64,000 bases of DNA from Gracilaria domingensis (taxonomy: Eukaryota; Rhodophyta; Florideophyceae; Gracilariales; Gracilariaceae), in the NCBI GenBank assembly GCA_022539475.1, contig VCMS01000319.1:1-64000 (forward strand), read 5' to 3'. The first letter of the stretch is position 1. Each line of letters starts with the position of its first letter. This document shows positions 2,150-36,190 of this stretch, in pieces. The notes under the pieces are model-generated. The model ran no database searches and was not told the origin of the DNA. It saw nothing but the letters and a program-made list of their open reading frames with translations. A program made the position numbers and the translations under genes.

Positions 2150-2249
2150 GGGGATTTGCTAAAAGGGGGTTTTTGGCCGGAGGGGTCGGGGTTCCCCAGG
2201 ATGTGGCAGGCGTCGTCCAGTAAATTTTTTTGAAAAAATATCTGAGATT

Positions 2250-2276
2250 CAATTATTTCAAAATTTGAAATAATTG
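2250..2276. repeat. AT-rich palindrome with 13-bp arms
   Basis: The left arm CAATTATTTCAAA and right arm TTTGAAATAATTG are perfect reverse complements around one central base. It could form a cruciform or be the remnant of a miniature element tip. No matching second copy was seen in the window. Confidence 0.7.
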
Positions 2277-3650: not shown

Positions 3651-4639
3651 GCTTCTCGCGTCTTGCGCTACTTTGGTTACCGGGTTCCCGTTTTCACCTT
3701 CAATCGTTTATATGGACAAATAGAAGAAGTAGGGTGAAAACTTTATTTCCTGCCGTTTGCCATGTCGCCAGTCATGCGCGAAAGAAAACGTGGTGAGGAA
3801 TTGGTTAGTTTAGAGCAAAGATACGTGGAAGCATATGGGAAGAACGTACGAATAGACTGCACGGAATACAGTCCATCAGATACGGATGATGTCCCGCTTT
3901 ATGGCGTTCTACTCCGGCGATAGAAACGCCCGACTGTAAACGGCTATGTCGGTACGCGAGAGCGCGCTGGCGGGCGGCGAAACGGATAAGAGATTTATTT
4001 TTCTGTGCGAGACTGGACAGGTGTTACAGCGTGCTACAAGCGTTGCGAAAACCACAGGCTGCTTATAACTCAGTGGCGTACGACTATACGAGGAAGTTAC
4101 ACCTTGTTTGAGGTCGACGTTACCTTACGTTCCTTTTGAACGAAAGCACGTGATTATAAACTCAAAAATATATTCTCCGTTCTTCAGCATGGACGTTTGT
4201 CTCGATCTTGACTGTCGCTCATCCTCTTCTCCCCTCTTACAACCATTCCCTCAATGCAGTCTTATGTTCGTCGTTTCTCGTTTCAGGTTTCTTCCCATGG
4301 TCTACTACTGTACACCACAAGAAGCTGTGTTGGCCCTTCGTTGACTCGCGAGGATCTTACTCTCAACAGGCATGTCAACCATTGCCCGTTTCGTCTGAAA
4401 GCAGCGCGTGGAAGACGACGATTTCATGCCAGGCCCATTCGAAGAAGCCAAGCGTCCTCAAGCTTTCCCGCGGCCCGCGCCCGCTATCTTCCGAAACGTC
4501 ACTGCCCTTGTCGCCTTCCCGAGCACTTCAGTGTTTCCGAGTGACATCGTTCGACCCCACTCCGTTGCGCCCCTCCCATATCCGGCACACTTCGCGCATT
4601 GTTGTTTCTGCCTTCCCCGGTCCCGCGTCATTAGAGCGA

Positions 4640-6551
4640 GAACACGGAAGCAGTTTCCCGCCCAGTGCCTTCTGGGAGGCCCTGGTGATTTGCATATGGA
4701 TTATCTCACGATAAGGTTGTCTGGCTTCGAGTAAGCTGCCAACCTTGGTCATCGGTGAGGCAGACGAGCTAATTGGCTACTCGGGAACCCGCGATTCATC
4801 GCAAAAGCGATCAACGAGACCATAAAACAAGTTCCAGCCGCTCGACGATCATGTTACAGAACTGAAGAAACGCCATTCTCGAACCGATACGCCTTCAAAC
4901 GACGGTTCAATGCGCCAGAACTGTTCCGCCAGAAAGGATGTAAGTTCAGCGCCACAATCTACACCGAGAGACCCCGTGCAGACAGCATTGTTAAAACAGG
5001 CTCCAGTTGGCTAACAACTCGAAAAAACATACCTATTCTCCCCCTATACCTCAGAACTACTTGCACCGAAAATATCTCACCATGTCCGGGCTCTCTCGCA
5101 AGAGGAAGCCACCTCAAAACTTAAGAAGTAGTGAGGCTCTTGGATTAGTAAAATAGCTTGGTACTTCCCAAGAATAAGTTAAAGGAATCTTTCGTAGGTC
5201 TTCTGCAGGTAATACACCATAAGTCTCAAACAACTCTAAGCAAACATCGCGTTACCGCCTATCCTCTTCACCTCATATTTTCTCAACTTCGCGACGAAGG
5301 GCTTCGCCGTAAGTGTATCCGTGATGACTCACAGTAGTGGCATACTTTCCTACAACACTAGTACAGTTTTCGCATCTGACTTCATGAGGTTGCGAAAAAA
5401 CTGTACTAGGAGCAGACGCAATCCCATTCCTCTCAGGAAGTCTCTTACGCGATCAGGATGCACATCCTTCAAGATCTTTTTTGTTCAAATCTTGTTTTAT
5501 AGCAAAATTCATAAATCTAATTTGGCAAAAAGTTTTTCATTATCGGCGAAGACGCACTATATCGAGTGTGCCTTTTCTGCAATTTTTGTGCGGATTTTCC
5601 TTGAGGCTAAAGACATCTGTCTACTCTTCATGGGACCAACGCCAAACCCTTGTCGTAGATTGCAAATCCTCCCTCAGCTTATGCGTAATGTTCTTACGTC
5701 ATTCACTGAGACCCTCCTCAAACCACCACTAAAACTTTTAGTGATAGTTCTTGAAGAGTCAGAAAGACATACTCAGGTATTCGTCGAATATGCCAAAAAA
5801 GTGCCGAAGGAGAAAAGAAGTTTACGTCGTGCAAGGGAGGAGGAGATCTAAGTCGGATACTCTTCATGCGTTCTTCTTAATTCCAATACTCTTTTCTGTT
5901 ATCGTGCATCCAAACCTCCTTGACCGTAAGATTCATCCAGGGGTTATTCCATGCAGTGTGTACGGAACAAGGAGAGCCTCTCTTTGAACCAGTAGCCCAA
6001 CTTGCATCTCGCATATTGAAACGATAATACTCCAGAATATCGAGAGATTAGCAGAGACCCTAAAGCACTGCAATAGAATCATCCCGACGTCACGGTCATT
6101 TCGAACATACGTACTCAAAATCTCAGACACTTTAGCAAATTCGCAAGATCTATTTTCCCCCCCCCCAGCAATGCAAGGTTTCTGCCAGAGGTTTTGGCAT
6201 ATTAGATTTGATTACGCCGAAGAAAAGCAGGTTACTGAATGGAACCTTTCATTAAGCAGATCTCCTTCGAATGTATGGATGCCAAAACCATACAAAGACA
6301 TTGAAATGTTTTTTGCTTTCATGTGTAATTCTTTGAATCTGATAGCGAGCGCAGGACTCGGCCCCAATCAGAACAATTTTTCTCAGTACTCGGAACGTCG
6401 ATTGGACTTACTTCATAGGTTCAAATCCGTGGCCCATTGTGTAGTGAAAGCTCTATTTCTGTCTCTTAAGGTGGCAGTACGATTGCAAGCTTTAAATGGC
6501 TCCTCGAACAAAGTGGCCGCAGGCAATTCAAGCTTTGGAATGGAACACTAG
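4640..6551 (+). pseudogene. Transposase remnant of copy A
   Basis: This is the counterpart of the better preserved remnant at 23590-25400. Recognisable shared pieces include 'GDLHMDYLT' near 4689, the 'TYTERP/LYTRDP' block near 4960, and the later 'EYAKK' block near 5790. It is cut by many frameshifts and stops, with no frame running through more than a small part. The family call rests on copy B: a Plavaka/CACTA-superfamily transposase. It cannot encode an active enzyme as it stands. Confidence 0.5.
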
Positions 6552-7789
6552 AGTTTTATCACGGCCTCTTAACAGCAAGAAGACAACTACACAACCATGG
6601 CAGCATTTTACCGAATCTCTACAACACGTCCTGATTTATGTCCTCTCTTGTAATGTTGGTTGACCAGGCCTTGTTAATGGCGAGCCTGAAGCGATACGAT
6701 TTCAATATTGGAACTTATTGTCATGTGCTACGAGCCAAGCACGCAGGCCTGAAGGGTTTCAGACTACCATCTGTTTGCTTTCACCTACGACTCTCATTTC
6801 GCGTTTTCCTGTCCATAGAGTTTTTGAAACCTGATATGAATTTAGCACATAGGAGCTGCTACAGCCCCCGTTCTCTAAACCTGTGAGGATCATGTAGCAG
6901 TTAGCTTATCATGAACTCCATTATTCTTTTTTAAGGGTTCCGCAGAGATATCCCTACACTATAATTCGGGGACTTCTATCGGGCGTTGAAAGGCCTTCAT
7001 TTGCTCGTTTACCGGCCCCCGTTGCGAGTAACGACCTGACAATTAAGATTCAGATATTCAATTACAAAATAGCGCCAGAGCTTGGTGCGCGTCAATGGAC
7101 TTAGACGGTTAGTTAACTTCATCTAAATTCAATCCGTCATAGAATGTTGATATCTTCACCGGAAAACAATTGGTGGCGAGTATTTTAAGTAGCTACTAAC
7201 TCTCGTTACTCTGTCTTTTCGCCAGCTCATCCGGGCGTGCATTACCACTTCTCGTGCGTGCGACACTGTTGAGCGCGTTTCGTAGGTCGTCACCTTTCTG
7301 CATTGAGCAGCGTAAAAGTGTCGTGTGTGTCAGTACCGTACACAACTTAGGGCAAGATCATGGTCGTCAGTTTTTTTACTAGGCAGCATCAATTCGCGAT
7401 ACGAAAAAATAGCTGAGTCTTGTCGGGATGAATGTATATTGTGCTGTCGCGAAAAAAAGGACTGTCATATGCACAAACTGTGATTTTGGGGAGGTGTCGA
7501 AAGGCTGAAAAAGTTTAAAATGTGTCGCGAGGCAGGGGTTTTAGTGATCTAACTGATGCGAGTTAATGTGTGCGCTCTCGATTGTGCTTTTTAAGCGCTC
7601 ATAATACTCGAGATATACTCTCATTTACTGTCAGCCGGCGTTGTCTGTACAGGCCCATTTTACTCCCGCCCATCACCGTGGCAGCACTGTTCACGTGTTG
7701 GCGGCGGGTACACCGTAATGAGTTGCGGGATGTCTGAGGAAAGGTTGTTTTGGGAGGTCTTGGTCTGATGGTGCTCTAAACGCTGTAGC

Positions 7790-8312
7790 CAGATGCTTCG
7801 CACCGCCGGCCCAGCTGGGGAGGGGAGGCGGCGAGGCTGGGCAGGTTGGTTGCTGTTAGGGTTGGCTAGCCCTAACAAAAAGCCGCACCCCCCCCGTCCG
7901 CGGGCACGCTTGTTGGCTTTTTTTAAAAATGTCGCTTTTCTATGCCCGCGGGTGGGGGCCGGTCAGTGCTTAGGGTATTTTTGCTACCCCTCAAAGACCG
8001 GACCTCCCGCCGCCCGCGGGCACGTTTTGGCCGGATTTTTTAAAAAAATGGGGCCATTTCTATGCCTCGCGGCTCGGCGCTTGGCGGTCCAGTTCGATGT
8101 AGTCCAGGAGGTATTCCTACCCACTAACGAGCGCGCATCAATACCTCGTGACCCCCCCTCCCCCTGCCCGTGGGCACTTATTCCATCATTCTGGTAGCGT
8201 CACAGACCACCCAAAACACACCAGAAGCACGCAACACCGTGCCAAACGTTAATCTGCCCACAGAGGCAGGGTGGTCAAATTGTGTACGGTAGCGACCCTA
8301 ACACAACTTGAC
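7790..8312. repeat. Degraded array of palindromic units (copy A)
   Basis: Several units have the layout: C-rich tract, GCCCGCGGGC palindrome, 'ACGTTTTGGCCGG', a T/A run, then a palindrome with a TTAGGG...CCCTAA centre (for example near 7855-7878 and 8280-8312). The arms are imperfect here, while in copy B (26546-26954) they are perfect or nearly so. It sits at the same relative place in both transposon copies, so I take it as part of the element. Confidence 0.7.
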
Positions 8313-8400
8313 CTCGTCCCTTGCCAGGATACATCAGATGACTTGATGAATTGTCTGACGAGGCCGCAGTCTGCAACGTACCCGTCTTTCCAGCAAAAAC

Positions 8401-9129
8401 CTTTCTTACAGCGCAGGCAACGGCAAAGTGGTCGGAAGTTCCGACCACCTTTGGCTTTGCTCCTACCAACCACTACACGCCTCGCTTCCCGCCCTCACTT
8501 CGTACAGAAACAATAAAACTCCGCTCGTTGTTTGTTTCGCATTCCGCCTGAATTCTCAGCGAGTTCACCCACTCAACGGCTCCGCAGTCGTTCCCGTCGT
8601 TCCGTCGCGCGCTGCTTCGCCGCAGCCGTCATCGCCGCCACCTCGCATGCATCGTAAATTCAACTTGCCTCAATGCTTCCGAAGCATGGAACATGGGGCA
8701 GTCCCATTACAACGCCCATCAACTCCTCTTCAGTTGAAGGAACCGTTGCCAGCGCGGGGAAGAACAGCATACGGATGACCAGTATCGTCATGGCATATTT
8801 GCCGCCTTGAAGGAAACCCCTGGATGGTCGTGACAAGCTACAGCCGCACGGCACCGAAGTGCGCGAATAAACCAAAGATAAGGACGAAGCGTTCTGCGTA
8901 TTGCCGCTCGGTGGGACAGAGAGACATTTAAACAAGCCTGTTGCAGCCCCAGCGCACAGACGCGGCACTCTGCAACGAAAGATGAATGGAGTGCATGCAT
9001 TTTTTCCGCCCATGAACGGGCACATGTGAGCGCTTGTTGAACGAGCTGCCAGCACGTCGTTGACGCCAGAGTGCAACGATATTGCTGCATGGCGAATGTA
9101 TTGCATTTTGCTACCTCGAGTGGAACACC
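8401..9129. other. Intergenic stretch, nothing recognised
   Basis: This runs from the end of transposon copy A to the ankyrin remnant. Short frames occur on both strands (for example the 148-codon minus frame at 8660-9106) but none shows a domain motif. Confidence 0.4.
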
Positions 9130-10110
9130 TGAACGTTGCTGAGAGATCTTATTTCAGCGCTGCTTGAAAACCAGATGCTGCGACCTATGCTGTCAGAATT
9201 GCGTTGCATTTATTTTGTCGCCCGAAAACGGGCCACATTGAAAAGATTGGTAAGAGCCTGCTGCATTCGCGAGTCGCGGGACTGCACAGTGCAAGATCAC
9301 CGACCCGGTAAGAATAGCGTTGGTGAATCATGCTGCACGATGGAAAATTAGAGATAAGAAGGTTTGGTGTCATTTTGTAATTTGTTCGACTTGCCACAGC
9401 GCAGACAGGCTTTCGGTCGGAAAGTGCTGCATCATGAATGCCGCATATGGACAGATTGAGATGGTTTGAAGCTCTTGTTGCAGCACCGGCTCGGACCTGC
9501 ATGCCTAGAGAAACTATCGTCACAATGCACTGCATTTGAGCGCGGTGAAAGGGCACGTTGAGGTGTAGAAGGAGCTGCTGTTGTCGCGTGGCGCCGACTT
9601 GTACAGCATAGACAAGTACGATCGGAATGCGTTGCATCTCAGGGCGATGTATGGATACTTGGAGGTGATGAACGAGCTTCTGCAGCACAGTGTCGCACAG
9701 CGCAGACGATCTCGGGAATGCGTCGCATCATGCCGCCCGATACGGACACATGGAGGTGGTTAAGGTTGACGTGCACAGCGCAGACACTTTGGTCGAAATG
9801 TGTTGCTTATGCCACCAAAACGGACACTTTGAGGTGGTAAAGAAGCTGCTGTAGCCCGCGCCGACTTGCACAGTGCAGACAACCATGTTCGGAATGCGTT
9901 GCATCTGACCGCGATGGACGGACACATAGAGATTACAAAGGAAATTCTGCAGCGCGGCGCCGACGTGAACAGTGCAGACATCTACGATAGCAATGCTTTT
10001 CATCTAGGCGCGATGAAGGGACACGTTGAGATGGTGAAGAAGCGGTTGCTGCAGTGCGGCTCCAATTTGCACTGTGCGGACAACTACGGTTCAGGCGTTG
10101 GATCATGTGT
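9130..10110 (+). pseudogene. Ankyrin-repeat protein remnant
   Basis: A unit of roughly 100 bp recurs about eight to ten times. The best translated units (9581-9690 and 9866-10090) read as ankyrin repeats: 'RNALHLTAMDGHIEITKEIL', then 'RGADVNSADIYDSNAFHLGA', then 'MKGHVEMVKK'. These show the usual helix-turn-helix pattern of the family (A-LH-A---GH-E-----LL--GAD). Units before 9580 and at 9690-9860 lie in shifting frames, so the array is broken. Ankyrin repeats bind other proteins; the partner cannot be told. The last open frame (9866-10336) continues without a stop into HECT-ligase sequence, so either one ancestral gene joined the two or two fragments became joined later. Confidence 0.8.
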
Positions 10111-11936
10111 AACTTATCTTTCACCTTACAAGCTATCAGCGACTGGTTTAGTGCCATCTTTCGCATCGGTTATTGCGGTCTTGAAGCATCTGCACTGGGT
10201 ATCGGAGGAACTAAGTTTTTGTTCGACTTCTGTGGGCGCAAGCACTGTTGCATCTTCTACTGCTAAGGTGACTAGAAAGTTCTATGATCCTATGCGTTAT
10301 GTGGAGGGATTGTGCCCCTGTGCTGCTTCACAGTAGCGAGAGAATCGTCATTTCTAATCCCGTTTGATATCAAAAGAACTCTGTTTCAGTCAACTTCTCT
10401 GGGCGTTTCGCAAGCGCTTCATTTGTTGCAGAAGCGTAATGAAATGTCAGGGGTTGCGAGTAACAGATCTTCTCGACACCAGCGTGAAAGCGAAACAAGG
10501 AAAGGGCGTATTCGACGTCAAAAGGTTCGAATCTATCGCGACCGAATCGTCGAATCGGCGATCAAGGTGATGAACATGTATTGCCCTCATGGTACAGTGC
10601 TAGAGGTCGAAAACATCAACGAGGATGGAGCAGGATTGGGACCTACTCTTTAGTTTTACATTCTTACCTCGAAAGAAATTCAGATGGTAGATCTGAAGCT
10701 TTGGAGAAGTAGCAGTTCGCAGACAATCAAAACGAAGGCAGAATCGGAAACGGCAACACACTTCATTCATCATATTCGAGATAATGTTCACGTCCAGTTC
10801 GTCAGTCCTCTACACGACGAAGAATTCGAAGGCAATCTAACACGAAACCGACAGTCGCAGTTCAGAGCGAGCCTCCAAGCTACCTAGTGCCTACTGGGAC
10901 AGGATTTCTCCCTTCAGGCCTACCAGTAACGATTAGTGAAGCCCAGAAATCTGCGGCTTCGAAGACTTGCTCTTTGTTCCAATTCATTGGTCGTCCTCTG
11001 GGTAAGGCTGTTATTGACGGTCGCTTGCTGGATATGAGGTTTTAGAACACTTTCTCGGAACTTCTCCCGGCATACTGTCGAGTAATATTCGACAGCTGTG
11101 GGCCCTCACGTTCAGATTCATCAGGCTCGTCATCCATCCTGGAAGTAGATTCGGAAGCAACAACGCGACAGATTGGGATCGAGATATAGATCGAAAGAAG
11201 GTGTGGCAGAGATACACTAGCGAGAAATCGGCTATGAAACTGTTGGATAATGTTGACCATCAACTCGCTGTTTCGCTGCAATCAATTATAAGAATGGTGG
11301 GTGACAATGAAGGCGATTCGATACCAGCCCTTTGTCTGACATTTGTTTTGCCCGGTGATGATTCGATAGAACTTGTGAAAGGCGGAAGCAATATTGAAGT
11401 AAATGAGCAGAATGCTGAAGAGTTCGTGAGAAGAGTGACATACCATGTGCTTTTTGGAGGTGTGTATCAGCAAGCTGAAACGCTTTGAGAGGCTTGGGTG
11501 AGCTAATTGATATCACGAGTCTTCTAGTGTTCCGAAGCGCTGAACTTGAGTTGTTTTTCTGCGGTCCGCCATATGAGAAGTGGACTATGAACTTTTTGGT
11601 TCATTCTACGCGATGTGATCATGGATTAAGCCACGAGAGCGCTGCGGTGAAGTACTTCCTACAACTTCTAACAGAATTGGATGAAGAAGATCAACAGCGT
11701 TTCATCCAATTTACTACTGGCTCTCCAGCTCTTCCTCTGGGGGGCTGAGCAATTGCATCCCAGTCTAACAATTGTGCGACGTACCCCGGAAAGCGGGCAC
11801 TCTCTGGACCAGTGTTTGCACCGTGATGACTAGCACAAATTATTTCAAACTCCCGGAGTATAGTTCTTATGAGATTGCGAAGAAGCAGGTGCTTTACGCT
11901 GTTCGTGAAGGACAGAGGTCGTTCCATCTTTCGTAG
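10110..11936 (+). pseudogene. HECT E3 ubiquitin ligase pseudogene, UFD4/TRIP12/UPL3 type
   Basis: The remnant covers the end of the ligase and nearly all of its HECT domain. In order: 'TAKVTRKFYDP' near 10262, 'FDIKRTLFQST' near 10360, 'RDRIVESAIKVMN' near 10540, 'GAGLGPTL' near 10632, 'LFQFIGRPLGKA' near 10977, 'HQLAVSLQSIIRM' near 11259, 'NEQNAEEFV' near 11403, 'FTTGSPALPLGG' near 11709 and '[16 protein letters not shown]' near 11838. Such ligases pass ubiquitin from a thioester on a Cys in the motif VMTC. Here that codon (11832-11834) is AGC, serine. At least three frameshifts and an in-frame TAG (10651-10653, where the family has Glu in LEFY) also break it. The family call is very secure; the copy is certainly non-functional as a ligase. 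Confidence 0.93.
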
Positions 11937-12179
11937 AGTGTTTCGAAAGTTAACGCTAGTCAACGGGCAAAGGGCCGGCAAAGAGTAAAGCTTTTTTCTG
12001 CTTACAAAAGTTGGTTTACCGAGCACAGTATACAGCGGGACTGACTGGGGGTGCTTCCAAGGACTTTGACTTCCTTCGTTCAACCAGCACGTCTATATTT
12101 GAAACTATCTCAGTTACTGTTAGCTTTCCGCTAAGTACGGCTCCTTCCATTGAGGCAAGGTACATTTGCTGGGTGAAGC

Positions 12180-12738
12180 CAACCGCTGCGGCCGGCGTGC
12201 GGAACAGAAAGAACGTGAGCAGCAGCAGCGTCACACTGTAGATCAGCGGTTCGTGTAGAGCCTCACGCGCGCTTCCCTCTCTCGACAACGCGCACGCCAA
12301 CGCGCTTCGCGCGGAGGTGGCAGACAAAAAGCCTGACACTACAGGCACAGCGGGGAACAACAGCGGCACGCAGGCGGCACACAGACGCGGGTCGGTGGTC
12401 GCGCTATACAGCGGCCACAACACAAGGAAAGCCGGCCCGCAACTGATTTGGATGATCTTCCTCGTCGTGCGCGAGAAAACCAGCCCAAGCGCTGTTACCC
12501 GTTGCCAGACGCCCAGCCAAAGCGTGACGGCGCCGACGATCGCCAGCGTGAGCTGCGCGTCGCACGACGCGTCAGCGAGCGCCGGCAGCATGAGCGCGCG
12601 CTTCGCGCCGCGCTGCAGGCAGGCGCGGCTTGCGGGGCGGCGGGGAATGAGCGCGATGCGATGGAGAGCGTGCGTGGCGGCGTGGAAACGGCCGGTCTGA
12701 AACGACGGAAGCGGCGAGAGGAAGCACGTCGCCCTCAT
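12180..12738 (-). pseudogene. Phytol-kinase-like (VTE5 family) fragment, copy 1
   Basis: One open minus frame (12016-12969) holds a fragment matching the second copy at 30011-30892. It starts at 'MRATCFL', followed by an Arg/Ala-rich stretch suited to a plastid transit peptide, then 'TLAIVGAVTLWLGVWQRV', 'SRTTRKIIQISCGPAFLVLW' and 'LSREGSAREALHEPLIYSV', then a hydrophobic segment. The TRK-I---G---L--WP pattern and the 'GPL-Y--T' segment are typical of the polyprenol/phytol kinase family, whose members phosphorylate phytol for tocopherol and phylloquinone in plastids. Likeness to copy 2 stops near 12180, before the cytosolic GDG-type motif and the C-terminal membrane part. So this is a truncated copy. 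The open frame runs past both borders by chance. Confidence 0.75.
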
Positions 12739-12779
12739 GGCGGACGGCGCGCGCACACCGTGAGGGTGCGACGCGGCGC

Positions 12780-12895
12780 GCGACAGCGGCGCGGCGTCGG
12801 CAGATGTTGGCGGACTGCGGAGGTCAGCATCTGAATCGGCAGCTGCGATCATGCCAATATTCAGCTGGAGGAGGCGTCGCGACTCGCCTCCGTGC
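12780..12895 (-). repeat. Duplicated 5' flank of the phytol-kinase-like copies
   Basis: The block around 'ACTGCGGAGGTC', 'CAGCTGCGATCAT' and 'CAGCTGGAGGA' here also occurs at about 30940-31050. It lies just upstream of each phytol-kinase-like copy, which shows that both copies came from one duplicated segment. Past 12895 the neighbour is a Notchless fragment; past 31050 it is repeat T. Confidence 0.75.
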
Positions 12896-12982
12896 CAAGT
12901 GGGCCACAGGCTGGGGCCGCTACCGCTGTGTATGCCTGCGCGAATACACGCGTCACGTGCCACGTGCACGGCGGCGTCGTCG

Positions 12983-13990
12983 GTGAGAGTCTTTCATACC
13001 GCGTCCTGTGCTGCGCGGTCTTCTTCGACGAGTTGGGCGGCGCGCGATGCAGTCGGATGGCGCCGACGGCGTGTTTCTCGCCGGATTGTCGCTTGCCAGC
13101 GACGGGTTCTGGCCATACAACCGTCAGATTGTGGAATGCGGAGGCGCAGTTGCCGAAGCTTTCCTTGGTCGGTCATCGCGATTGAGTGCTGGCGTTGGCA
13201 TTTTCTACAGAGGGGAGTCGATTGGATTCTGCTTCGAAGGACGGTCGGGTATGGATCTGAGACGTTGAGAAAGGAACTGGTGAGAGCTTGGCTTCCCATC
13301 GCAAATGGGTGACGGATTTGGGTTTGAAGCCGTATCATTTGGATGAACGATGTTGTTTGGTGGTGTCTGCTTCGAAGGATGCTACGCTGAAGATTTGGAA
13401 CGTGGCTAGCATGAGCCGGTCAGGATGCTCGCGCGACATAGAGCTGCAGTCACGACTGCCGTGTGGAGTGGAGACGGTTTTATCTATTCTGCTTCTCAGG
13501 ATCGTAGTATAAAGATCTAGAATGCTGATAATGGCTTATCTTTGTCGACTATAAATGCACATGCTCACTGGGTGAATTCCATCACGCTTTCTACCGACTA
13601 CGTGCTCAAGTGCGGTGCGTTTGCATCTCTGGACGAGCAGAACGGATACATGCCGGTCAAGTGGTCGCGAGAAGAGGCGTTGGAGCGCTATGAAAAGGTG
13701 AAACGGCAAAGTACGGGCGGGAGGGAACTTATGTGAGTGGGTCCGATAATTTCACTTTGATGCTGTGGGAAGACGTTTGGAAACGCACCTAGGGCATACA
13801 GCCCATTTCGCGCATGACCGGCCATCAGCAGCTGGTCAAATGCAGGGCGTTCAGTCCGGATGGGCGGTATATCGCGTCGGCCAGTTTTGACAAGAATGTA
13901 AGACTTTGGGATGGCAAGCTGGCAAGTTTTGCTTCACGTTCCGCGGACATGTTGCGGCCGTTTACCGAGTGGTTTGAGAAGATATTAATC
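12983..13990 (+). pseudogene. NLE1: Notchless (NLE1/Rsa4) WD40 pseudogene
   Basis: Translated pieces match Notchless, an eight-bladed WD40 protein that acts in 60S ribosomal subunit assembly through the AAA ATPase Rea1/Midasin. Visible blades: 'GHTTVRLWNAEAQ' near 13115, 'SASKDATLKIWN' near 13371, 'HAHWVNSITLSTDYVLK' near 13559, 'EALERYEKVK' near 13676, and '[20 protein letters not shown]' with '[16 protein letters not shown]' at 13812-13915. The sequence between blades 5 and 6 with an 'ALERY' insert is characteristic of Notchless. The N-terminal domain that binds Midasin and the final blades are missing. Several frameshifts and stops, for example in the 'GRVWI-stop-DVEKG' blade, break the rest. 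It looks like a gene fragment copied away from its home locus. Confidence 0.88.
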
Positions 13991-14039
13991 CTGCGCAGTT
14001 TTTTGTTCGTTTAAGAGATGGAGATGAGATAAAATGTGT

Positions 14040-14912
14040 ATGGTGTACTATAATGTGCGCCAGGAGGCCTAGATGAGTTGCAAGAGAAGCTTATGGTCCT
14101 TAGAAACGTGATAGACCTGATGGAGAAGGCGGTGAAAGTGTTCTGCACAAGACAAGGGTTGGTGGAGGAAAGGATGTTGAAATCGGATGTAGAAGGAAGG
14201 ACAGAGATGGGAAGTATGGGAAGGGTTGCGGCACAGAAGGAGTCCTTTTTGACACCGAAGGCGAAGGCTGGTAGGTTCGGGCACCGGAAGAGCCGTCTGA
14301 CGAAGAGGCGTAAGGAGAAGAGGATGGTGATGAAAGAGGTGCCAAGGAGGCAATCGGGGCTCCGGTCTTGACTGGGTTTTAACGTGGGCATGGCACTGCG
14401 AACGGCCGAACGAAATCTGGCGGCGCATAAGGAGAGAAGGATGGGGAGGAATGGGAAGCTGTTTTTGGGCGACGCGGGGTGTACGGGATTGGGGAGGGTT
14501 GCTACCCGTACTTCTACAGAAAAGCTTTGGGAGACGGAGAGGAAGGATCCGAACGCAGGATCGGCGAAAAATGAGTAAAGAGTGATTGCGGTTTGGATGG
14601 AAGGAACGTTGGGATGATGAGGTGGGATGAGTTGTGATTTTATCGCAACTCAGAGGAAAATGGAAACGCAAACTAGCACGAGTGCAGTTTTGAGAGACGG
14701 TCGCGGAAAGAGTGAATGGGGTGGTGCGGCGAAGTAGAACCTCTACAAAAACTAGGGGACCCAAGAATTAAACTGCGCCATATGGAATTTAATATTCCAA
14801 AATTTCTTAATTTTTGAGTGCCAGCCTCTGCCACCCCTCGCGCGCCCCAAATAGCCCAAAAACTAGCTTAGTTTCCAAAGCGAACAGACTATATTCCACT
14901 TTGCAGAACACA
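14040..14912 (+). repeat. Purine-rich repeat T, copy 1
   Basis: This shares long stretches with an inverted copy at 18256-19780 and a direct copy at 31055-31524. Common blocks are 'GGAGACGGAGAGG.AGGATCC', 'GGAAACGCAAACTAGCAC', 'GGAATTTAATATTCC' and the end 'CACTTTGCAGAACACAGACG'. All copies stop at that last point and different DNA follows. It is unclassified. It may be part of, or a non-autonomous relative of, the retroelement fossil next to it. Confidence 0.8.
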
Positions 14913-15560
14913 GACGATGTCGTCCAAGTACACAAAACACGTCTTCCACTTGAATCTAGCCAACAGAATGTCAATCGCGCGCTGAAACGTAGCGGGAGCA
15001 TCGTTAGCCCCAAGGGCATCCGTTTGAAACGGTACAGTCCTTGGTGACATACAAACGCGGTCTTGTCGCATCTTCCTTTCGAATTGGAACCTGCTAGTAA
15101 CCCCAATTGGCGTCAAGGGCGGTAAATACTCTGGGCGCTTCCCAGCGATCGATGTACTCATCCATCCGTTGAATCGGATACACGTCTTTGACGGTAACGG
15201 CGATTAGTCGCCTGTAATCGATGCAAAAACGCCACGATCCATCCGACTTCGGAACAAGTACAACCGGCGATGCCCATGACGACTGAGCTGGCTCAATTAC
15301 GTCGGCTCGTAGCATCTTCTCGACTTGAGACTTTTCTTCTCCCGCGCTTTCGGGCCTGCCCGATACGGGTGTTGTGCGATTGGGCGAGTGTCTGGGAGCA
15401 GATCAATACGGTGCTCCGTAATTCCAATTGTTCCAAGGAACCGTCCCACATGCGGAGTAAATTCTGTGAGCATGTCTCGCAACTTCTTGGCGATGAGACG
15501 GAGCGACATGGTCCAGATTCACTTCTCTAATTCCTCAACATTGATTCGTCTGTTCTGTGC
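14890..15560 (-). mobile_element. Ty3/Gypsy LTR-retrotransposon fossil (reverse transcriptase part)
   Basis: The minus strand carries a piece of a Ty3/Gypsy reverse transcriptase. Visible family landmarks are the stretch leading into the domain near 15500-15420, the 'DGSWRFCIDYRRL' block near 15200-15240 and the YLDD catalytic box near 14910. RNase H, integrase and long terminal repeats were not identified here. It is broken in several places and truncated at its distal end by repeat T. By eye it looks old. GC-rich sequence up to about 18250 may be more of the same element, but I see no domain there. Confidence 0.9.
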
Positions 15561-21360: not shown

Positions 21361-21379
21361 GTGGGAAGAACGAACACCC

Positions 21380-22303: not shown

Positions 22304-22485
22304 ATCGTAAGCGCAAAACGGTGTCGAGCGAGTAACTCACAAAGCAAGGCCACCAAGAATGCCCATGCAGCAAACATACCGCAAGATGCGATAAACGAAA
22401 GAGCAGCCTATGTCCCAACCAAGTACCAGAATCGTCTATCCCGAACAGTCAGAGATCCAAGATCGCCAAGAAACCAACTTGGTTT

Positions 22486-22570
22486 GTTGCGCTATAGGCT
22501 CTAGCTTCTCGTGTCTTGCGCTATTTTTGAAAAGTAGCGCAAAAGGCGAAACTAGAGCCTATTGCGCAAC
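22486..22570. repeat. Hairpin with 19-bp arms in copy B
   Basis: The left arm 'GTTGCGCTATAGGCTCTAG' and right arm 'CTAGAGCCTATTGCGCAAC' pair with one mismatch. Between them a second pair, 'TAGCGC' against 'GCGCTA', extends the stem. Copy A keeps the left arm (3630-3652) but passes straight from 'CTTGCGCTA' to 'CTTTGGTTACC', so the right arm and about 80 more bases are absent. Confidence 0.8.
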
Positions 22571-22822
22571 GAAATGAACCATTAGTCGCGTACTTACAGT
22601 CTTCGCTTTGGGTTACCAGGTTCCCGTTTTCACCCTTCAACTTGTTCTATATTTTGAGCGAATAGAAGAAGTTGGGGGGGATTAGCTTTTTTCCTGCCGT
22701 TTGCATGTCGCAGAGCGCGAAGAAACGTGGTGAGGATTGGTTCGTTTAGAGCAAAGATACGTGGAAGGATATGGAAGAACGTACGAATAGACTGCACGGA
22801 ATACATCCGTGAGATACGGATG

Positions 22823-22900
22823 ACTCCGTCCTATTTTTTCCGCCCTCTACTTTAAGGAGCCTCCATAAAGTAGAGGGAGGAAAAAGAGGGACGGAGCGGA
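22823..22900. repeat. Long imperfect hairpin in copy B
   Basis: The inner arms 'CCCTCTACTTTA' (22843-22854) and 'TAAAGTAGAGGG' (22866-22877) are perfect. Pairing continues outward with few mismatches to 'CTCCGTCC' and 'GGGACGGAG', giving about 31 paired bases. Copy A has no hairpin at this place. It may be a miniature insertion. Confidence 0.75.
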
Positions 22901-23589
22901 GTATAACGCGAGGATGTGGATGGCACGGATCACGACGGTAACGGAAGGTCGGACGTCGGAAGCGCGGCGGCGGCGGCGGAGGGAAGAGATTTATTTTTCT
23001 GTGCGAGATTGGACAGGTGTACAGCTTACAACTTTGGAGAACCACAGGTTTATAACCAGTGGTAGATAATACGAGAAGTACACCCTTGTGTTGAGGTCGA
23101 CGTGTACCTACGTTCCTTTTGAACGAAAGCACGTGATTTAAACTCAAAATATATTCTCCGTTCTCAGCATGACGTCGATCTTGACTGTCGCTCGACCTCC
23201 TTCTCCCTCGGAAGACCTTCCCTTGAAGTCTTTGTCGTCGTTTCTCGTTCATTTCTTCTTCCCATGGTCTACTACTGTACACATAAGAAGCGTAGGTGCC
23301 CCTTCGTTACTCGCCGAGGAGTCTTATCTCTTCAACAGCATGTCAACCATTGCCCGTTCGTCTGAAAGCAGCGCTGGAAGACGACAATAGGCGGCCCATT
23401 CGGAGAAGCAAACGTCTCAAGCTTTCCGCGCACGCGGCCGCATCTTCCGAAACGGTCACTGCCCCTTGTCGCCTTCCCGAGCCTCCGGTGTCCGAGGACA
23501 TCGTTGACCACACTCCGTGCGCCCCTCCCATTCCGGACACTTCGCATTGTGTTTCTCCTTCCCGGGTCCCGCGTCATTAGAGCAAGAAC

Positions 23590-25400
23590 ACGGAAGCAGT
23601 TCCCGCCCAGTGAATTCTGAGGAGGCCCTCGGTGATTTGCATATGGATTATCTCACGGTTTGTCTGGCTTCAGTAGCTTCCAACCTTGGTCATCGTGAGG
23701 CGGACGAGCTAATTGGGCTACTTCGGGACCCGCGATTCTCGCAAAAGCGATTCAACGAGACCATAACAAGTTCCAAGCGCTGTACAGAACTGAAGAACGC
23801 CATTTTCGAACGATACGCCTCAAAGGACGGTTTCAATCGAAGAACTGTCTGGCCAGAAGGATGTACGTTCAGCGCCTCCCTCTACACGAGAGACCCCGTT
23901 CAGACACTTTTGAAACAGCTCCAGTTGGCTAACAACGAAAACACATTCTTCCACCCTATACCTCAGACCCACTCCACGAAAATATCTCACCCCATGTCCG
24001 GCTCTCTCGCAAGAGACGCCACCTCAAAACTTAAGGAAATGTCATGGGCTCGTTGGATAGTAGAATAGTGTAGTACTCCCAAGAAATAAGTTACAGTGAA
24101 TCTTTCGTAGGTCTTCTGCAGGTATACACCGATAAGTCTTCAACAACTCTAAAGCAAACATCAGTTACCGCCTATCCTCTTCACCTCATATTTCTCAACT
24201 TCTCCGACGAGCTACGCCGTAAGTGCATCCGTGATGACCTCACAGTAGTGGCATACTTCCCTACCACACTGATCGAGGTTTCCGCATCTGAAGCAGACGC
24301 AATGCCATTCGTTTCTAGCAAGTCTCTACGCGAGTCCAGGATGCAAATCCTTCAAGAATCTCTTCGTCAAGTCCTGGAGCCCATTCTAAATCTCACGCAG
24401 AAAGTTTTCGGTTCATCGGCGAAGACAAACTAAGTCGAGTGTGCCATCCTCTGCAAGTTTTCGTGCGGATACTTTTGAGGCTAAAGACATTCTGTTAACT
24501 CTTCACGGGACCAAAACGGGGAGCTCCTGTCATAGATTCGAGGCCCCTCCCTCATCTTTATGCAGTAGTATTCTACTTCATTCACTGGACCCTCTCAAGA
24601 CCAAACCAAAAGCGTTAGAGATACATACTCAGTTATTCTAGAATATGCAAAGAAAGACGAGGCAGGAAGAAGTATATGTCTTGCGAGGAGAGTATATCTC
24701 AGGCGGTACTCTCAAGCGTTCTGATTACATATCTCTTATTCCGTCGTTCATCGAAACCCCCTTGACGGTAGGATTGATCCAGGGTTTGTTTCTATGCAGT
24801 CTGTTGGGAACAAGGAAGCTCTCTTCGAACAGTTACGCAACTTGCATCCAGACAAATTGAAGCTGATTAATACTCCAGAAATCGAAAACCTCTAGTCAGG
24901 GACGCTACTCACTGCAATAGAATCATCCACGTCACGTTTATTTCGAACGATACGTACTCAAATCAGCAACTTTACAAACGCAAATCTATTCCCAATGCAA
25001 TGCAACTTTTTTGCCAAAGGTTTACATATAGATTTGTCCACGTCGAAGAAAGGCAGGTCACTGAATGGAACCTTCACAAAGGCAGATCTCCTTTGAATGA
25101 TGGAGGCCAAAGCATACAAAAACCTTGACATGGTTTCCCTTTCGTAAAGGAATTCTTTGAAATCTGATAGGGAGCGCAGGACACGGCTTCAATCAAAACA
25201 GTTTTCTCTCAGTACTCGGGTGTTGCTTGGACTAGTTATAGGTGCAATCGTGGCGGATGATGTAATGAAAACTCTATTTCGTCCCTTCGGTGGCAGATTG
25301 AAGCCTTTAACGCTCCTCGACAAAGTCGTGGGCAGGAATTCATAGCTCTAGAACTGGGAGTCTGAGGTTCTATCTCGACTCTCAACAGAAGAAAAACTAA
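23590..25400 (+). pseudogene. Plavaka/CACTA-like transposase remnant, copy B
   Basis: The longest frame (23517-24068) reads 'GDLHMDYLTVCLASVASNLG', 'GLLRDPRFSQKRFNE' and 'LYTRDPVQTLLKQLQL'. Next, in other frames, come 'VGLLQVYTDKSSTTLKQ' near 24108, 'VTAYPLHLIFLNFSDELRRK' near 24157 and 'TVVAYFPTTLIE' near 24243. The series DK-S-T, YPL, N-S-E-R and VA-P is the pattern seen in Plavaka-type transposases, relatives of CACTA Tnp2 known from fungi and algae. This family call is from memory of the pattern and could be off within the CACTA group. Several frameshifts and stops make it non-functional. The carboxyl half beyond 24431 is only traceable in scraps. Confidence 0.55.
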
Positions 25401-26079
25401 CACCATTGGCAGCCTTTTACGGCATCTCCGCAACACGTCGATTAATGTCTTCTCTTGTATTGTTGGTGACAGGCTTTGTTAACGGAAGGTGAAGCGATAC
25501 GATTTCAAAATTGGAACGATAATCATGTGCTACCAGCTCAAGCACACAGGGCTGAACGGTTTTCATGCCTACCATCTGTTTTGCTTTCTGCGACGACTCT
25601 CGTCGCCATTCTGTTTCATAGAGTTTTATACTGAATGAATTTAGCATATAAGAGCTGCTACAAACCCCGTTCTCTAAACCTCTGAAAATCATGTAGTAGT
25701 TAGCCTATCAGGACTCCATTTAGTTATTTATGGTGTTTCGCAGAGAGCTCGCTCTATTACCCCTATAAATCCGGTATTATATGGTCGTTGGAGGCCTTCA
25801 TCGCTGTTTGTCAGACCGTCACCACGAACAAATTAGATTCAGATATATAAATTGAACGCTAGAGCGGAAGCGCTCATGCTATTAGATAATACCTTATCTT
25901 CATCCTCGGTAGAATTTGTATCTTCACCGGAAAAAGTGGTGGCGAGTATTTAAGTAGCTACATACTGTCGTCACTCTGTTTTTTATGCATCTCATCCCTG
26001 CGCATTACCACTTTTGTGCGTGAGGGTGTTGGCGCGCTTCGGTGGTACGTCTCTTCGCCACTTTGATCAGTTTAAATAG

Positions 26080-26100
26080 TGTAGTGTGTCAGACACTACA
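26080..26100. repeat. Inverted CACTAC motif
   Basis: 'TGTAGTGT' and 'ACACTACA' face each other across 'GTCAG'. CACTA transposons begin CACTA and end TAGTG, so this could be a junction of two element ends, or simply an internal palindrome. Copy A keeps a blurred version near 7318-7345. Confidence 0.6.
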
Positions 26101-26545
26101 CAAATTGTAACAAGGTCGCGTATTATGTTACTGGTTGAGCATCAATTGGATGAAAAAACTAGTTGATTTATCTCTAAAAGATCTGTACTGAGCTCGCAAT
26201 AAAATCGTTGCAAGGAATACAACCGATTGTGTTTTGGGAGGTATCAAAACGCTACAGAATGGCCTCAAAAAGTTCCTTCTAGCGAAGGGTTTTGGTGGAC
26301 GTAGATTTATGCGAACAATGGTAGCGGTCTCCATTCATGCGTTTTGAAGCGCTCCTAATACTCAAGATATACTCTAATTAATGTACAGCTTTTTGCCATC
26401 CCGCCAATCCACGTAGACAGCGGTGCCAACGTGTTCGCGGGCGGGTGCATGGTAATGAGTGCAAGAAGTGTTGAGGAAGGGGTTTTGGGAGGTCTCGGCA
26501 TGGTGCTAAAATGTGACCAGAACGGGCCCACCGGCGTGGGGGGAT

Positions 26546-26954
26546 CGGTTGTGTTAGGGTGGCTACCCTAACACAACCGCACCCCCCCCCGTCCGCGGCA
26601 CGTTTTGGCCGGTTTTTTAAAAAAATTGCTTTTTTATGCCCTCGGGCGGGGGGGTCCGTTCGTGTTAGGGTACCTACCCTAACACGAACGGACCCCCCCG
26701 CCCGCGGGCACGTTTTGGCCGATTTTTTCAAAAATGTGCGATTTCATGCCCGCGGGCGGGGGGTCCGGTCGTGTTAGGGTACCTACCCTAACACGACCGA
26801 CCCCCCCCCCGCCCACGGGCTGGTTTTCGCCTCATTCTGGTAGCGTCCACAGACCTCCCAAAACACACACCGCACGCATATCCAGCCAAAACGTAACGTG
26901 CCCGCGGGCAGGGTGGTCGAGTTGTGTTAGGGTAGCGACCCTAACACAACTTGA
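26546..26954. repeat. Array of GC-rich palindromes with TTAGGG/CCCTAA cores (copy B)
   Basis: At least four palindromes are present. The first (26546-26579) has perfect 15-bp arms around 4 bases. The second (26644-26703) has perfect 29-bp arms around CC. The third (about 26753-26815) is nearly perfect. The fourth (26917-26954) has 17-bp arms with one mismatch. Each centre reads GTGTTAGGGT..ACCCTAACAC. Between them lie GCCCGCGGGC palindromes, the motif 'GGCACGTTTTGGCC' and a T/A run. The TTAGGG hexamer equals a common eukaryotic telomere unit, but it appears singly, not in tandem. Position inside a transposon suggests subterminal binding sites; this is inference. Confidence 0.88.
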
Positions 26955-27040
26955 TATCGCGCGCTGCCAATAAGACAGAATGACATTACGACATGTCTGA
27001 TGACGCCCGCCTGCAACAACCCATCGCCAGCAAACCTCCG

Positions 27041-29328
27041 CGCCGCCCACGGAGCGCGCTGCGCCATTCCTGCAGGCGGTGCGTCGTTCAACGACGTTTG
27101 CGTGCCAGCTCATCCTGGATGGCCCATGCGTGCGAGACTTGGCTGCTGTGAGCGCGTCATCATGCTACGTCAATCAGCACCAGTTTATGTGCACCGCGCG
27201 TGACCAAGCGCCCTTCGCTATCATGGAGTGGAGACCGGAAACCTCACGATTCGGGCGCCGCGCACAGTGCGAGGAGTAGCGCGGCGGCGACCGCGCTTGT
27301 GTGCAGCGCGCGCGTCATGGCGACGAGCTCATTCCGCGCGGCGGCGATGCGTTATATTACCGCGCTCAAAGGCGCGGTAGCGGAGCTAGTTCGCTTTGGA
27401 GGCGCAAAGTAGTGACGAAGGCGCGCCTTTTGGTGACGAGGCTGAGCCACCGCGCGCCTCGTGGCGGCTGAGAGCGAGAGGCGCGCAGAAATTGCGCGGA
27501 CATGGCCCGTAGTAGAAGGGGACAAAGTGAGATCAGACTCAAGCAACAACTGCGGCGAAAACGGCGAAGCTCGTTTACGCGCTCAATATGGTGTATTAAC
27601 TCATGCAACAGCTGCACGCGCATCGCTCGCCCTTAGCGCACGCACGCCCGGCTGCGAAGTGCGCGCCCCTCGCCGCGATACGCATCAGGCAGCGCTGCGC
27701 GTTGCGCGGCCGCTGTTTCGCGCTCGTCAGCGCATGGCGCTAAACTCGGCGAGCACGCCGCCGGCCACGAACGCGAGCGCGACGGCAAACGGCGGCGATG
27801 AGAAACGAGCGCTGCGGCTCGCACATCGCCAAAAGCATCACGGCGGCCTTGTCGGCGCGCGCAGTGCGGGTGTGCACGTCGGCGCCGCTGACGCGCGTGA
27901 TGGCGGCCTGCGAAGGCTTCTCGCTCACCAGCAGCACCTCGAAGCCCTTGATCAGAAGCGTCACGGCAGAGAGCACGTCAGTGAGCAGCTTGTACAGCAA
28001 CATGCTTAGCGTGTCAACGTCTGCGATTAGTTCCACCGGCATGAGGTTGAACAGCAACGGCAGCTTGAAGATGGCTCACTGTGGGCACGTCGTTGTCGCG
28101 CTGCAGCGCGCGCGCGCACAGCAGCAGGACCAGCCGCATTGGCGTATAATTGCGCGCCGACGGCGACAGCAGCTCACTGCCGAGCGCCGCACTGCCTGGC
28201 AGTGCCACGAACGCCCGCGCTGGAACGAGGCTGGGTGCTGTCCAGTTCAACTGCGGCGCTCCGCCACCGTCGTCGCCACCAGCGTCGCAGCATCATAGGC
28301 GGCGCGCGCAGCCACGGGTCCAGTTAGGCGCTCACGAACGTGCGCACGCGTGGCGGCATGCCGAGGCCCGGGTTGGCATTGGTGGCGGCAGTCGCCACGT
28401 ACCACGCGCCGCCGCGCTTGGCGAACAACGCCGAGTCGCGCACGCAGTGCTGCCCGCCCAGCGCGGCCGCCGCGAGAAAGAGACTCCCGGCGCGGTTGCG
28501 TGGCAGTGCCGACAGCACGGCCAGCGGCGGCGGCAACGTCGCCGCGCTTGGCCTGACGAAGCGCGGCACGGCGCGAGCCAGCGCGGCGGAGAAGTCGGCG
28601 ACGCTGCCACACAACGCGCCCGCGTGCAGCTGGCGCGCGGCGGAAGCCGCTAGCGCGTTGGAGACTAAACTAGGGTCGGGCACAGCCCAGACGCGCACCG
28701 TACCGTAGCGACGCTGCACGCCGTTCCAAGTCCAGGGGGTTGGCGGCGCGCTGATCACACGTGGGCATGGCAGCGCGCTCGTCTACCAGCAGCGCCGATC
28801 GCAGCCGCGCCTCCAGAGGCGGCAGCTGGGCCTGCAACGCCACTACCGAGCGCGCCAGCGCGCGTGCAGCCAAAACCGGCGCCTCTGGCAGCCCCAGCAG
28901 CGTGGCGTTTACCGGCACCACCGCCGGCCACGGCCGGCGCCGCCGAGGCTTCTGGCAGCGAGTCGGGCGTGGCCGGCTGGGCTCACGCGCGTTTGCAGTA
29001 CAGCAGCAGCGCTACAGGGAGGGCAAGGACCCGGAGAGGGAACGCGGTACGGCGCGCTCATGGCACGTGAGTTGGCCATGGCGGCGGCAGCAGCGGAGTG
29101 AGACGCATAGCATGCCCGTTGGCGGTGCGCGCCGGGCAACGCCGCGCGCTCGCACGGTGCCCCGTTTGAGCGCTCTACGGCGGCACGGGGCTTTGCTGCC
29201 GGCGTCGCGTCATGCGATCCGCGTCCAGGATTGTACGTCCATCTTTTCACCATACTGTTGGCCAAACACAATGGCGGGAAGTAAGCCCTTCGCGAAGAGA
29301 ATCTTCTAGGGCCAGGTAAGCATATCAT
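27041..29328 (-). pseudogene. GC-rich coding-like remnant, unrecognised
   Basis: The composition rises sharply here. Minus-strand pieces read like a real, alanine- and leucine-rich protein in several frames: 'LLGLPEAPVLAARALARSVV' near 28890, 'GALCGSVADFSAALARAVPR' near 28640, 'ARAFVALPGSAALGSELLSP' near 28215 and 'LMPVELIADVDTLSMLLYKL' near 28045. I do not recognise the family. Shifting frames show it is broken. It lies between transposon copy B and the phytoene desaturase fragment and has the same GC-rich character as the phytol-kinase-like copies, so it may have arrived with them. Confidence 0.4.
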
Positions 29329-29355
29329 TATTTCTCAAGATGACCAGCACACCAT

Positions 29356-29994
<639 letters not shown>

Positions 29995-30010
29995 TCATAT
30001 GCGATCAGCT

Positions 30011-30892
30011 CTACGAGGCAAAGCAGCCGTCTCCCATTAGAAGTGCCAACGGCGCAACGGCCACGTTGTCATCGCTTCCAATCTCGTCCGCCACCAGCTC
30101 TGCGCCCGCGCTCAGCAACGCAATAAGCACGAACAAGGTGAAGGTACCCGTGCCAGGCAAAACGGCCATTTCGGAGCACGAAAACCAGCGCAGCAATGCG
30201 ATGAAGCTCGTAGATGCGCCCAGCACAAACGCGATGCTGCTGGCCACACTGTGGCCGCTTCTGGGCCACTTTATGGACTAGACTCGGCGTCCCACCACCT
30301 CCAAGCTGGTCGCCAACGCACATGTTCGCCACGGCAACCGCTGTGGCCTGCGTGCCGAACAAAAGTAGCGTGAGCAACAGCAGCGTCACACTGTAGATCA
30401 GCGGTCCGTGAAGACCCTCACACGCGCTTCCCTCCCTTGACAACGCGCGCGCAAACTCGCTTCGCGCGGAAGCGGCCGACGACAAGCCCGACACTGCAAA
30501 CACAGCGAAGGACAGCAGCGGCACGCAGAAGGGCACACAGATGCGCGTGGGGTATCGCGCTATACAGCGGCCACAACGCAAGGGTTGCCGGCCGGCAACT
30601 GATGGGGATAATCTTTCTCGTCGTGCGCGAAGAAACAAGCCCAAGCGCTGCTACCGGTTGGCAGACGCTCAAGCACAGCGTGACGGCGCCGACGATCGCC
30701 AGCGTGAGCTGCGTGTCGCGCAACCCGTCAATGAGCGCGGGCAGCATGAGCGCGCGCATCGCGCGCGCTCCAGGCAGGCATGTCGTGCGGGGCTGCTGTA
30801 AATGAGCGCGATGCGACGTAGAGCGTGCGTGGGGGCGTGGGATCGGCAGCTCAGAAGCGACGGAGCGGCCGGAGGAAGCACGTCGCCTTCAT
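30011..30892 (-). pseudogene. Phytol-kinase-like (VTE5 family) copy 2, nearly full length but frame-shifted
   Basis: The copy starts at 'MKATCFL' (30892) with an Arg/Pro-rich leader, then 'TLAIVGAVTLCLSVCQPVAA', 'RTTRKIIPISC', 'ARALSREGSACEGLHGPLIY', 'VANMCVGDQLGG', and, in a third frame (30011-30247), 'SIAFVLGASTSFIALL' and 'ELVADEIGSDDNVAVAPLAL'. This order matches phytol/polyprenol kinases, including the CxGD motif and the closing E----D-DN--VP segment. At least two frameshifts separate the three pieces. The C-terminal part present here is missing from copy 1 (12180-12738). The neighbouring phytoene desaturase fragment is also a plastid isoprenoid enzyme; whether that adjacency is ancestral is unknown. 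Confidence 0.8.
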
Positions 30893-31054
30893 GGCGGAAG
30901 GCCGCGCGATAAATGTGAGGGTGTAACGCGGCGATCGAAAGCGGCTTGGGGTCAGCAGATGATGGTCAACTGCGGAGGTCGGCACCTGAGTCGTCAGCTG
31001 CGATCATCGCCAATAGTCAGCTGGAGGAAGCCTCGCGAGACGCCTCCGCGGCAT

Positions 31055-31524
31055 GCGGCCGTTTTGGGGCGAGGCGGGTGCACGAGATTGGGGACGGTTC
31101 TCACACGTACCTCTACAGAATAACTTTCCGGGAGACGGAGAGGGAGGATCCGAACGCGTGATGGGCGAGATATAGGTGAAGAGTGGGGACGGTGCGGAAT
31201 GGGAAGGAATGGTGGGATAATTGAGGTGAGATGCGTTGCGATTTGCATCGCAACTCGGGGGAAAATGGAAACGCAAACTAGCACAAGCGCAGATTAGAGA
31301 GAGGGTCGCGGAAAAGAGTGGATGGGGCGGTGCGGCGAAATAGAACCTTTACAAAAACTAGGAGACCCAAGAATTAAACTGCACGAGATGGAATTTAATA
31401 TTCCAAAATTTCTTAATTTTTTGAGTGCCAGCCACTGCCACCCTCTCGCGCGCCCCAAAAAGCCCAAAAACTAGCTTTGTTTCCAAAGCGAACAGACTAT
31501 ATTCCACTTTGCAGAACACAGACG
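31055..31524 (+). repeat. Purine-rich repeat T, copy 3
   Basis: The sequence from 'GGCGAGGCGGGTGCACGAG' to 'TTTGCAGAACACAGACG' follows copy 1 (14470-14912) block by block. It abuts the phytol-kinase 5' flank on the left and the reductase fragment on the right. The right junction falls at the same base at which copies 1 and 2 stop. Confidence 0.85.
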
Positions 31525-33686: not shown

Positions 33687-33701
33687 CTATGATATGAGAT
33701 C

Positions 33702-36160: not shown

Positions 36161-36190
36161 GTGAATGACTCTGAGCCAGGGTCCTTGTGC

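Follow-up and report, generated by a model that had tools for sequence, protein, structure and literature searches.

The window analyzed here, a stretch of 64,000 nucleotides from the red alga Gracilaria domingensis (contig VCMS01000319.1), contains two copies of a DNA transposon, an older copy A and a copy B, each with an array of palindromes. The features are as follows; e3 is a complete copy of the element with a target-site duplication.

2196..14916, plus strand: older copy A, with left part 2196-8397 (75-82% identical to e3) and right end 14019-14916
7853..8304, plus strand: decayed palindrome array of copy A, traces at 7853-7878 and 8282-8304
22304..27040, plus strand: copy B, transposase module, array, and ~90 bp, 97.1% identical to e3
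26482..26954, plus strand: entire array of copy B
26546..26579, unstranded: palindrome 1, first-unit type, spacer GGCT, perfect arms of 15 bp, core 26551-26574
26643..26704, unstranded: palindrome 2, perfect arms of 29 bp, hairpin with one mismatch over 26637-26710, core 26662-26685
26766..26799, unstranded: palindrome 3, perfect arms of 15 bp, core 26771-26794
26920..26951, unstranded: palindrome 4, last-unit type, spacer AGCG, perfect arms of 14 bp, core 26924-26947
27041..31057, plus strand: cargo zone of copy B, one frame matching the flavin amine oxidoreductase domain (Amino_oxidase)
31058..31524, plus strand: right end of copy B, terminating ...CACAGACG

We infer from their order and strand that the left part and the right end of copy A belong to one element. 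The left terminus of copy B is hidden by an N gap (21701-22303). The Amino_oxidase-matching frame in the copy B cargo is presumably phytoene-desaturase-like, and the 325-aa frame of copy A gave no domain match.

The four palindromes of the copy B array are genuine and far exceed chance expectation. An earlier reading made from the letters alone (hereafter the sequence-only reading) had proposed an array of perfect palindromes at 26546-26954; all four were verified, with arms of 15, 29, 15, and 14 bp. They share a two-fold symmetric core of 24 bp, GTGTTAGGGT-4 nt-ACCCTAACAC. The same reading had centered each palindrome on TTAGGG/CCCTAA; the hexamers are indeed located there, but the true center is the 4-nt spacer between TTAGGGT and ACCCTAA, and each palindrome thus contains two inverted heptamers. 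The stem of palindrome 2 consists of 29 paired bp, one mismatch, and then 5 bp more. The array has a tandem period of 109-110 (units of ~110 bp), and an outer imperfect inverted repeat links 26482-26543 with 26803-26864 at 71%. Folded as RNA, the segment 26526-26954 reaches -277.9 kcal/mol (z = -17), a value matched by none of the shuffled sequences (0/100). As in the subterminal arrays of CACTA-type elements, the units are able to form stem-loops from a repeated short motif.

The array-bearing element is a Plavaka-type (CACTA-like) DNA transposon, as judged by its transposase domain (Plavaka, PF18759; E-values of 5.3e-19 at locus L017 and 5.1e-11 at L016, both past the cut-off), in agreement with the sequence-only reading that the array lies inside a DNA transposon. 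A single transposase piece was queried against the PDB, with 0 matches. All copies read at both ends (3/3; e1, x2, and e3, of 10.34, 10.47, and 6.38 kb, respectively) possess terminal inverted repeats, CGTCTGT...ACAGACG, and 2-bp target duplications (CA, TA, and TT). The termini TGT..ACA (PlavakaA) and CATCA..TGATG (PlavakaB) are absent from these copies; the element has a Plavaka transposase but CGTCTGT..ACAGACG ends and is therefore Plavaka-type, outside both published subgroups by its termini.

The modules are ordered as left end, transposase, array, variable cargo, and right end. In e3, the short form without cargo, ~540 bp separate the array from the right end and the array reaches to ~930 bp; in the long form (e1 and x2), the distance is 5.3 kb. 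The left end has no palindrome and bears three copies of the motif GGGTCGTCCA within its first 132 bp; a fourth GGGTCGTCCA, inverted, is found at 4442 of e1 and x2. Exact cores are confined to the array in e1, x2, and e3, and TTAGGGT occurs there only within palindromes. The possibility that copies of the array might be unrelated to transposons, raised together with the sequence-only reading, does not hold, as all further arrays read (28/28) occupy the same location within stretches homologous to this element. One of these loci, L005, is cut by the contig end and lacks a transposase-coding match, yet 1.4 kb of it matches the copy B module.

Two other assignments were considered and rejected. 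A third Plavaka family with 68% relatedness (L006, L010, and L018) is actually family I carrying 3.8-kb inserts. An independent foldback element, suggested by similar units lying in opposite orientation within a few hundred bp of each other, was not found at the 10 loci checked, 8 of which had been selected for inverted unit pairs; all are ordinary arrays of families I and II. The ~3.8-kb inserts (L006 960-4801 and L006/L031 6540-10306, at e1 positions 4579 and 6421) are mostly common to L018 and L010 and have no recognizable inverted ends. A 346-bp direct repeat is found behind the left end of e3 (L013 9356-10000, with L030), and this stretch is doubled in several other copies. Within the window, long-form pieces in minus orientation occupy 18252-21700 (83-88% identical to e1) and 31525-39218 (91-98%); the latter abuts the right end of copy B, which may have inserted into it, and an N gap (39219-39403) sits where the palindrome array of this minus-strand neighbor should start. 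A repeat family of ~247 bp and, in an AT-rich stretch, an open frame of 927 codons occur at 55814-58513 and 59672-62455.

A genome-wide search for the core, proposed with the sequence-only reading, was performed in the G. domingensis assembly (77.9 Mb, 680 contigs). A fungal host, which a Plavaka transposase might suggest, is rejected, since the genome contains 14 matches to phycobilisome linkers, phycobiliproteins on contig C680, and a phycocyanin whose nearest PDB entries are 5y6p and 2bv8 (Griffithsia and Gracilaria), all of which indicate a red alga, probably a florideophyte. Exact cores with a gap of 0-30 number 1388, compared with 0 for the reversed-pattern control, whereas cores with a gap of 4 and up to 3 mismatches number 1763 (12 for the control). 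At roughly 4 cores each, the 1388 exact cores would correspond to perhaps 350 arrays. No exact core was observed in viral contigs or in prokaryote contigs (0 in each). The 28 further arrays comprise 18 clusters among the matches listed for the exact core and 10 others chosen later; these loci were drawn from the match listings in contig order, not at random. Together with copy B, the 29 arrays include 123 units (4-nt gap, no more than 4 mismatches), between 1 and 9 per array, of which 101 have a perfect core, a count that favors perfect units since the loci were picked for having one. Spacings between units are 108-111 bp in 60/94 cases. Copies x1 and x2, with 99.3 and 98.5% identity over their two halves, contain 3 and 4 units, respectively. 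The first-unit pattern (136 places in total) lies within 10 kb of contig base 1 in 20 of the 100 places listed, against an expected 8.7%; this excess and the N gap at an array indicate that arrays or their elements break the assembly, and unit counts per array may consequently be wrong.

Conservation was assessed in an alignment of 12 sequences, namely, copies A and B and ten others, including L012; the near-identical L035 and L036 were counted as one lineage. Among type II pairs without A and L012, the core shows 0-3 differences per 60-80 sites where the left flank differs by 21-27%, so that it is indeed conserved as flanks diverge. In one of these pairs, B and L041, the core has 0/80 differences and the flank 182/698; the corresponding core values are 0/60 for B-L011, 1/80 for B-L014, 2/80 for B-L039, 3/80 for L014-L039, and 3/60 for L039-L008. 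The 8-bp arms adjoining the core differ by 10-33% in diverged type II pairs (9/60 in B-L041, 8/45 in B-L011, 8/62 in B-L014, and 19/62 in B-L039), and the remaining array differs by 8-15%. Since the arms differ in pairs with a frozen core, copying of whole units fails to explain the core. First- and last-unit types are still recognizable in diverged copies. L012 shows 4-6 core differences per 57-77 sites (4/77 relative to B), with a flank alignable over at most 8 sites. Recent pairs demonstrate no clear protection of the core (B-L013, 0/80 in the core and 19/1040 in the flank; B-L008, 2/60 and 21/1040; L008-L015, 3/60 and 39/1039).

Between copies B and A, the core differs at 21/79 sites and the flank at 305/1016, although alignment of the decayed array may inflate the mismatches. 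The frozen core, kept low in differences in diverged pairs but decayed in copy A, seems to be maintained in lineages that are still jumping and to be lost once inserted. The sequence-only reading correctly noticed the blurred array of copy A (7853-7878 and 8282-8304), and its argument for special maintenance of the arms relies on comparison with this much older copy. Its description of the element around the perfect arms as decayed is incorrect for copy B; this copy shares 97.1% identity with the complete copy e3 over 4.8 kb, and perfect arms are thus approximately what recent descent yields. Nor is the claim of special upkeep supported by the core of copy A, which decays like its flank, or by the recent pairs.

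Arm pairing was analyzed in 52 distinct palindromes after removal of 2/54 that had a frame shift or over 2 mismatches in the core. Pairing is kept in 95% of cells. Changes on both sides were found in 27 cells (7.4 in shuffles), and the covariation score is 0.125 compared with 0.062. Two of the five measures remain within the shuffles, i.e., the number of base-pair positions with both-side changes (4; 96/500 shuffles as high) and the number of pair types (11; 120/500). The covariation rests on these 4 base-pair positions, and independent compensatory events are probably few, unit types being inherited.

The array also marks a border in the homology between copies. Among 11 type II sequences, the block of homology spanning the array stops at a point from -106 to +221 bp relative to the last palindrome in 53/55 pairs; these values are rough, some being derived from short secondary matches, and they apply to sequences other than copy A, none of whose pairs was placed. 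Even copies with 96-97% identical left parts break near the array (B-x3 at +141; B-L008 at -49/+103). The two exceptions, L012-L041 (+770) and L035-L036 (+800), run until the available sequence ends. Cargo is common to family I copies, e1-L021 and e1-x6 being homologous to about +1376. Homology can resume farther to the right, either at the right end (B-x3) or in common cargo (A-B and B-L014). L008 is a mosaic composed of a B-like module on the left (96.6%), an intervening ~4.2 kb of different DNA that includes a match to short-chain dehydrogenases, and a right part matching e1 7977-10340 at 95% and reaching the right terminus. Other frames in the cargo zone match Aminotran_1_2 (L015), ECM29 C-terminal repeats (L011), and ankyrin repeats (L014); the right termini of these three loci are outside the sequence read, and it is possible that their frames belong to host flank and that the breaks reflect truncation.

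We propose that the array has a function within a cargo-carrying Plavaka-type transposon, as a putative platform for an element-specific DNA-binding protein; judging from the sequence comparisons, we give this reading a probability of roughly 45%. Each ~110-bp unit would provide a two-fold symmetric site, GTGTTAGGGT-N4-ACCCTAACAC, within a longer G/C-rich inverted repeat. Candidate binders are the transposase or an accessory protein acting like TNPA of En/Spm, and the binding might join the element ends or, alternatively, control transposase transcription or end it at the point where the transposase module stops. As tandem inverted repeats, the units could be gained and lost, and the array edge would be the place where transposase modules and cargo have recombined. 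What favors the element-specific platform is the core itself, which is frozen in sequence, has two-fold symmetry, recurs along the array, is shared between lineages, and occurs in this element alone in the DNA read. The restriction of TTAGGGT to palindromes in e1, x2, and e3, together with its lack of enrichment elsewhere, fits such a binder. The sequence-only reading had suggested transposase binding sites at the element ends; putative sites for a transposon protein are still the best reading, but the array is away from the tips (~540 bp or 5.3 kb).

Several observations weaken the platform reading. The left end has the GGGTCGTCCA motif and no palindrome, and in the long form 5.3 kb separate the array from the right end, even though these copies moved recently. 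Half-sites of 10 bp would suffice for binding, leaving the 29-bp arms unexplained; such long arms might have arisen through templated repair or reflect a hairpin function. Furthermore, recent pairs show no clear core protection and L012 differs from B at 4/77 sites, the covariation has 4 positions and probably few independent events, and the loci were selected by a perfect core. A more specialized version, in which the array would be a dedicated module-joining device, i.e., a putative binding hub for the swapping of passenger genes while the transposase half and the right end stay constant, appears unlikely.

Alternatively, the platform might belong to the host, with a TTAGGG-binding Myb protein of the Tbf1/Teb1/Tay1 type occupying the array, which would then insulate the transposase from the cargo or form an antisilencing boundary there. 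TTAGGG is indeed inside the half-site, the array is at the module border, and precedents exist in the Tbf1-bound TTAGGG repeats (STAR) that insulate in yeast (PMC9272169) and the fungal Tay1-type proteins, which bind TTAGGG and can act in transcription (PMC7952879). However, these precedent proteins are described for fungi, outside the arrays TTAGGGT/ACCCTAA falls short of its expected frequency, and no telomeric TTAGGG run was found in the genome, which leaves a host platform improbable.

The predicted RNA hairpins offer another explanation, according to which the transposase transcript would have the array as its 3' region, with hairpins that stop, stabilize, or process the RNA or supply small RNAs for silencing. 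The array is directly downstream of the transposase, its fold has a z of -17, and paired arms are kept by changes on both sides; in two family I copies, the open transposase frame ends at a TAG within TTAGGG of the first palindrome (L016 5440-5442, minus strand; L017 4882-4884, plus strand). Nevertheless, a pure hairpin would need pairing only, whereas the core is frozen in sequence beyond pairing, and the type II locus L008 has no plus-strand frame of at least 120 aa reaching the array from the left. We regard a purely RNA-level role as doubtful.

Equally doubtful is a product of recombination, that is, a functionless inverted-repeat minisatellite shaped by unequal exchange and template switching, with breaks resulting from palindrome fragility. 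Templated repair can make palindrome arms perfect, arrays vary from 1 to 9 units among the 29 examined, x1 and x2 are one unit apart, and homology breaks at the array edge. This explanation accounts neither for a core with 0-3 differences beside arms and linkers that differ nor for the unit types recognizable in diverged copies.

The telomere link of the palindrome core that the sequence-only reading had considered is unsupported. The host telomere repeat was sought genome-wide, as that reading had recommended, and (TTAGGG)4 gave no match; a looser three-unit pattern was found at 60 places, compared with 62 for the reversed control, those listed being TTAGGGGA-type minisatellites, some of which lie inside contigs (C2 597753-598414 and C9 71868-72866). 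Outside palindromes, ACCCTAA/TTAGGGT occurs 9 times in 290 kb of mostly transposon DNA, against 26 expected and 16 for the reversed word. To our knowledge, red algal telomere repeats are poorly known. An interstitial telomeric sequence or telomere-healing remnant is highly improbable, since in spite of the TTAGGG hexamer and of TTAGGG seen in Porphyra reads (PMC7046594), the hexamers are single and inverted rather than head-to-tail, and the core places are scattered along contigs, inside transposons where read.

In the literature available in part to us, Plavaka elements are described chiefly from fungi, and a protist and a green alga are also treated; searches for Plavaka in Rhodophyta and for TTAGGG palindromes with transposons and fungi found nothing on red algae or on this kind of array. 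In this red alga, Plavaka-type elements have variable cargo, and their transposase/cargo border is marked by a conserved array (>1000 cores). They provide a testable case of how eukaryotic DNA transposons acquire and swap host-like genes and of the role of internal palindromes in CACTA-like elements.

Four known systems can be compared with the element-specific platform proposed here. Bacterial REP/BIME sequences are likewise many interspersed palindromes tied to a transposase (PMC2817692), but they belong to another domain of life and another transposase type, and the algal palindromes are within the element. Yeast STAR shares a TTAGGG-type motif, bound by Tbf1, and a boundary-like position; it is subtelomeric and, in the portion of the source consulted, not described as transposon palindromes (PMC9272169), and the algal binder is putative. 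The fungal PlavakaA and PlavakaB elements share the Pfam Plavaka transposase and 2-bp target duplications, and some carry an extra TET/JBP gene (Kojima, 2025; PMC12730594). They differ from the algal elements in termini (TGT..ACA or CATCA..TGATG rather than CGTCTGT..ACAGACG), and the red algal host, the variable cargo, and the palindrome array are further differences, no array being mentioned in the part of that source available.

Plant CACTA elements (En/Spm with its TNPA sites and soybean Tgmt*) have a related transposase and many copies of a short stem-loop motif, arranged asymmetrically with the larger set on one side and differing between families (PMC2613891). In Tgmt*, 12 palindromes are possible within 732 bp of the right border; TNPA-like proteins are assumed to bind such hairpin-forming subterminal repeats, and bound TNPA can be an obstacle to RNA polymerase (PMC2613891). 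By contrast, the algal units are ~110 bp long with a symmetric 24-bp core, they lie at the transposase/cargo border up to 5.3 kb from the end, and the algal left end bears another motif. The plant layout is best resembled by the cargo-free e3, whereas other copies have cargo between the array and the right end.
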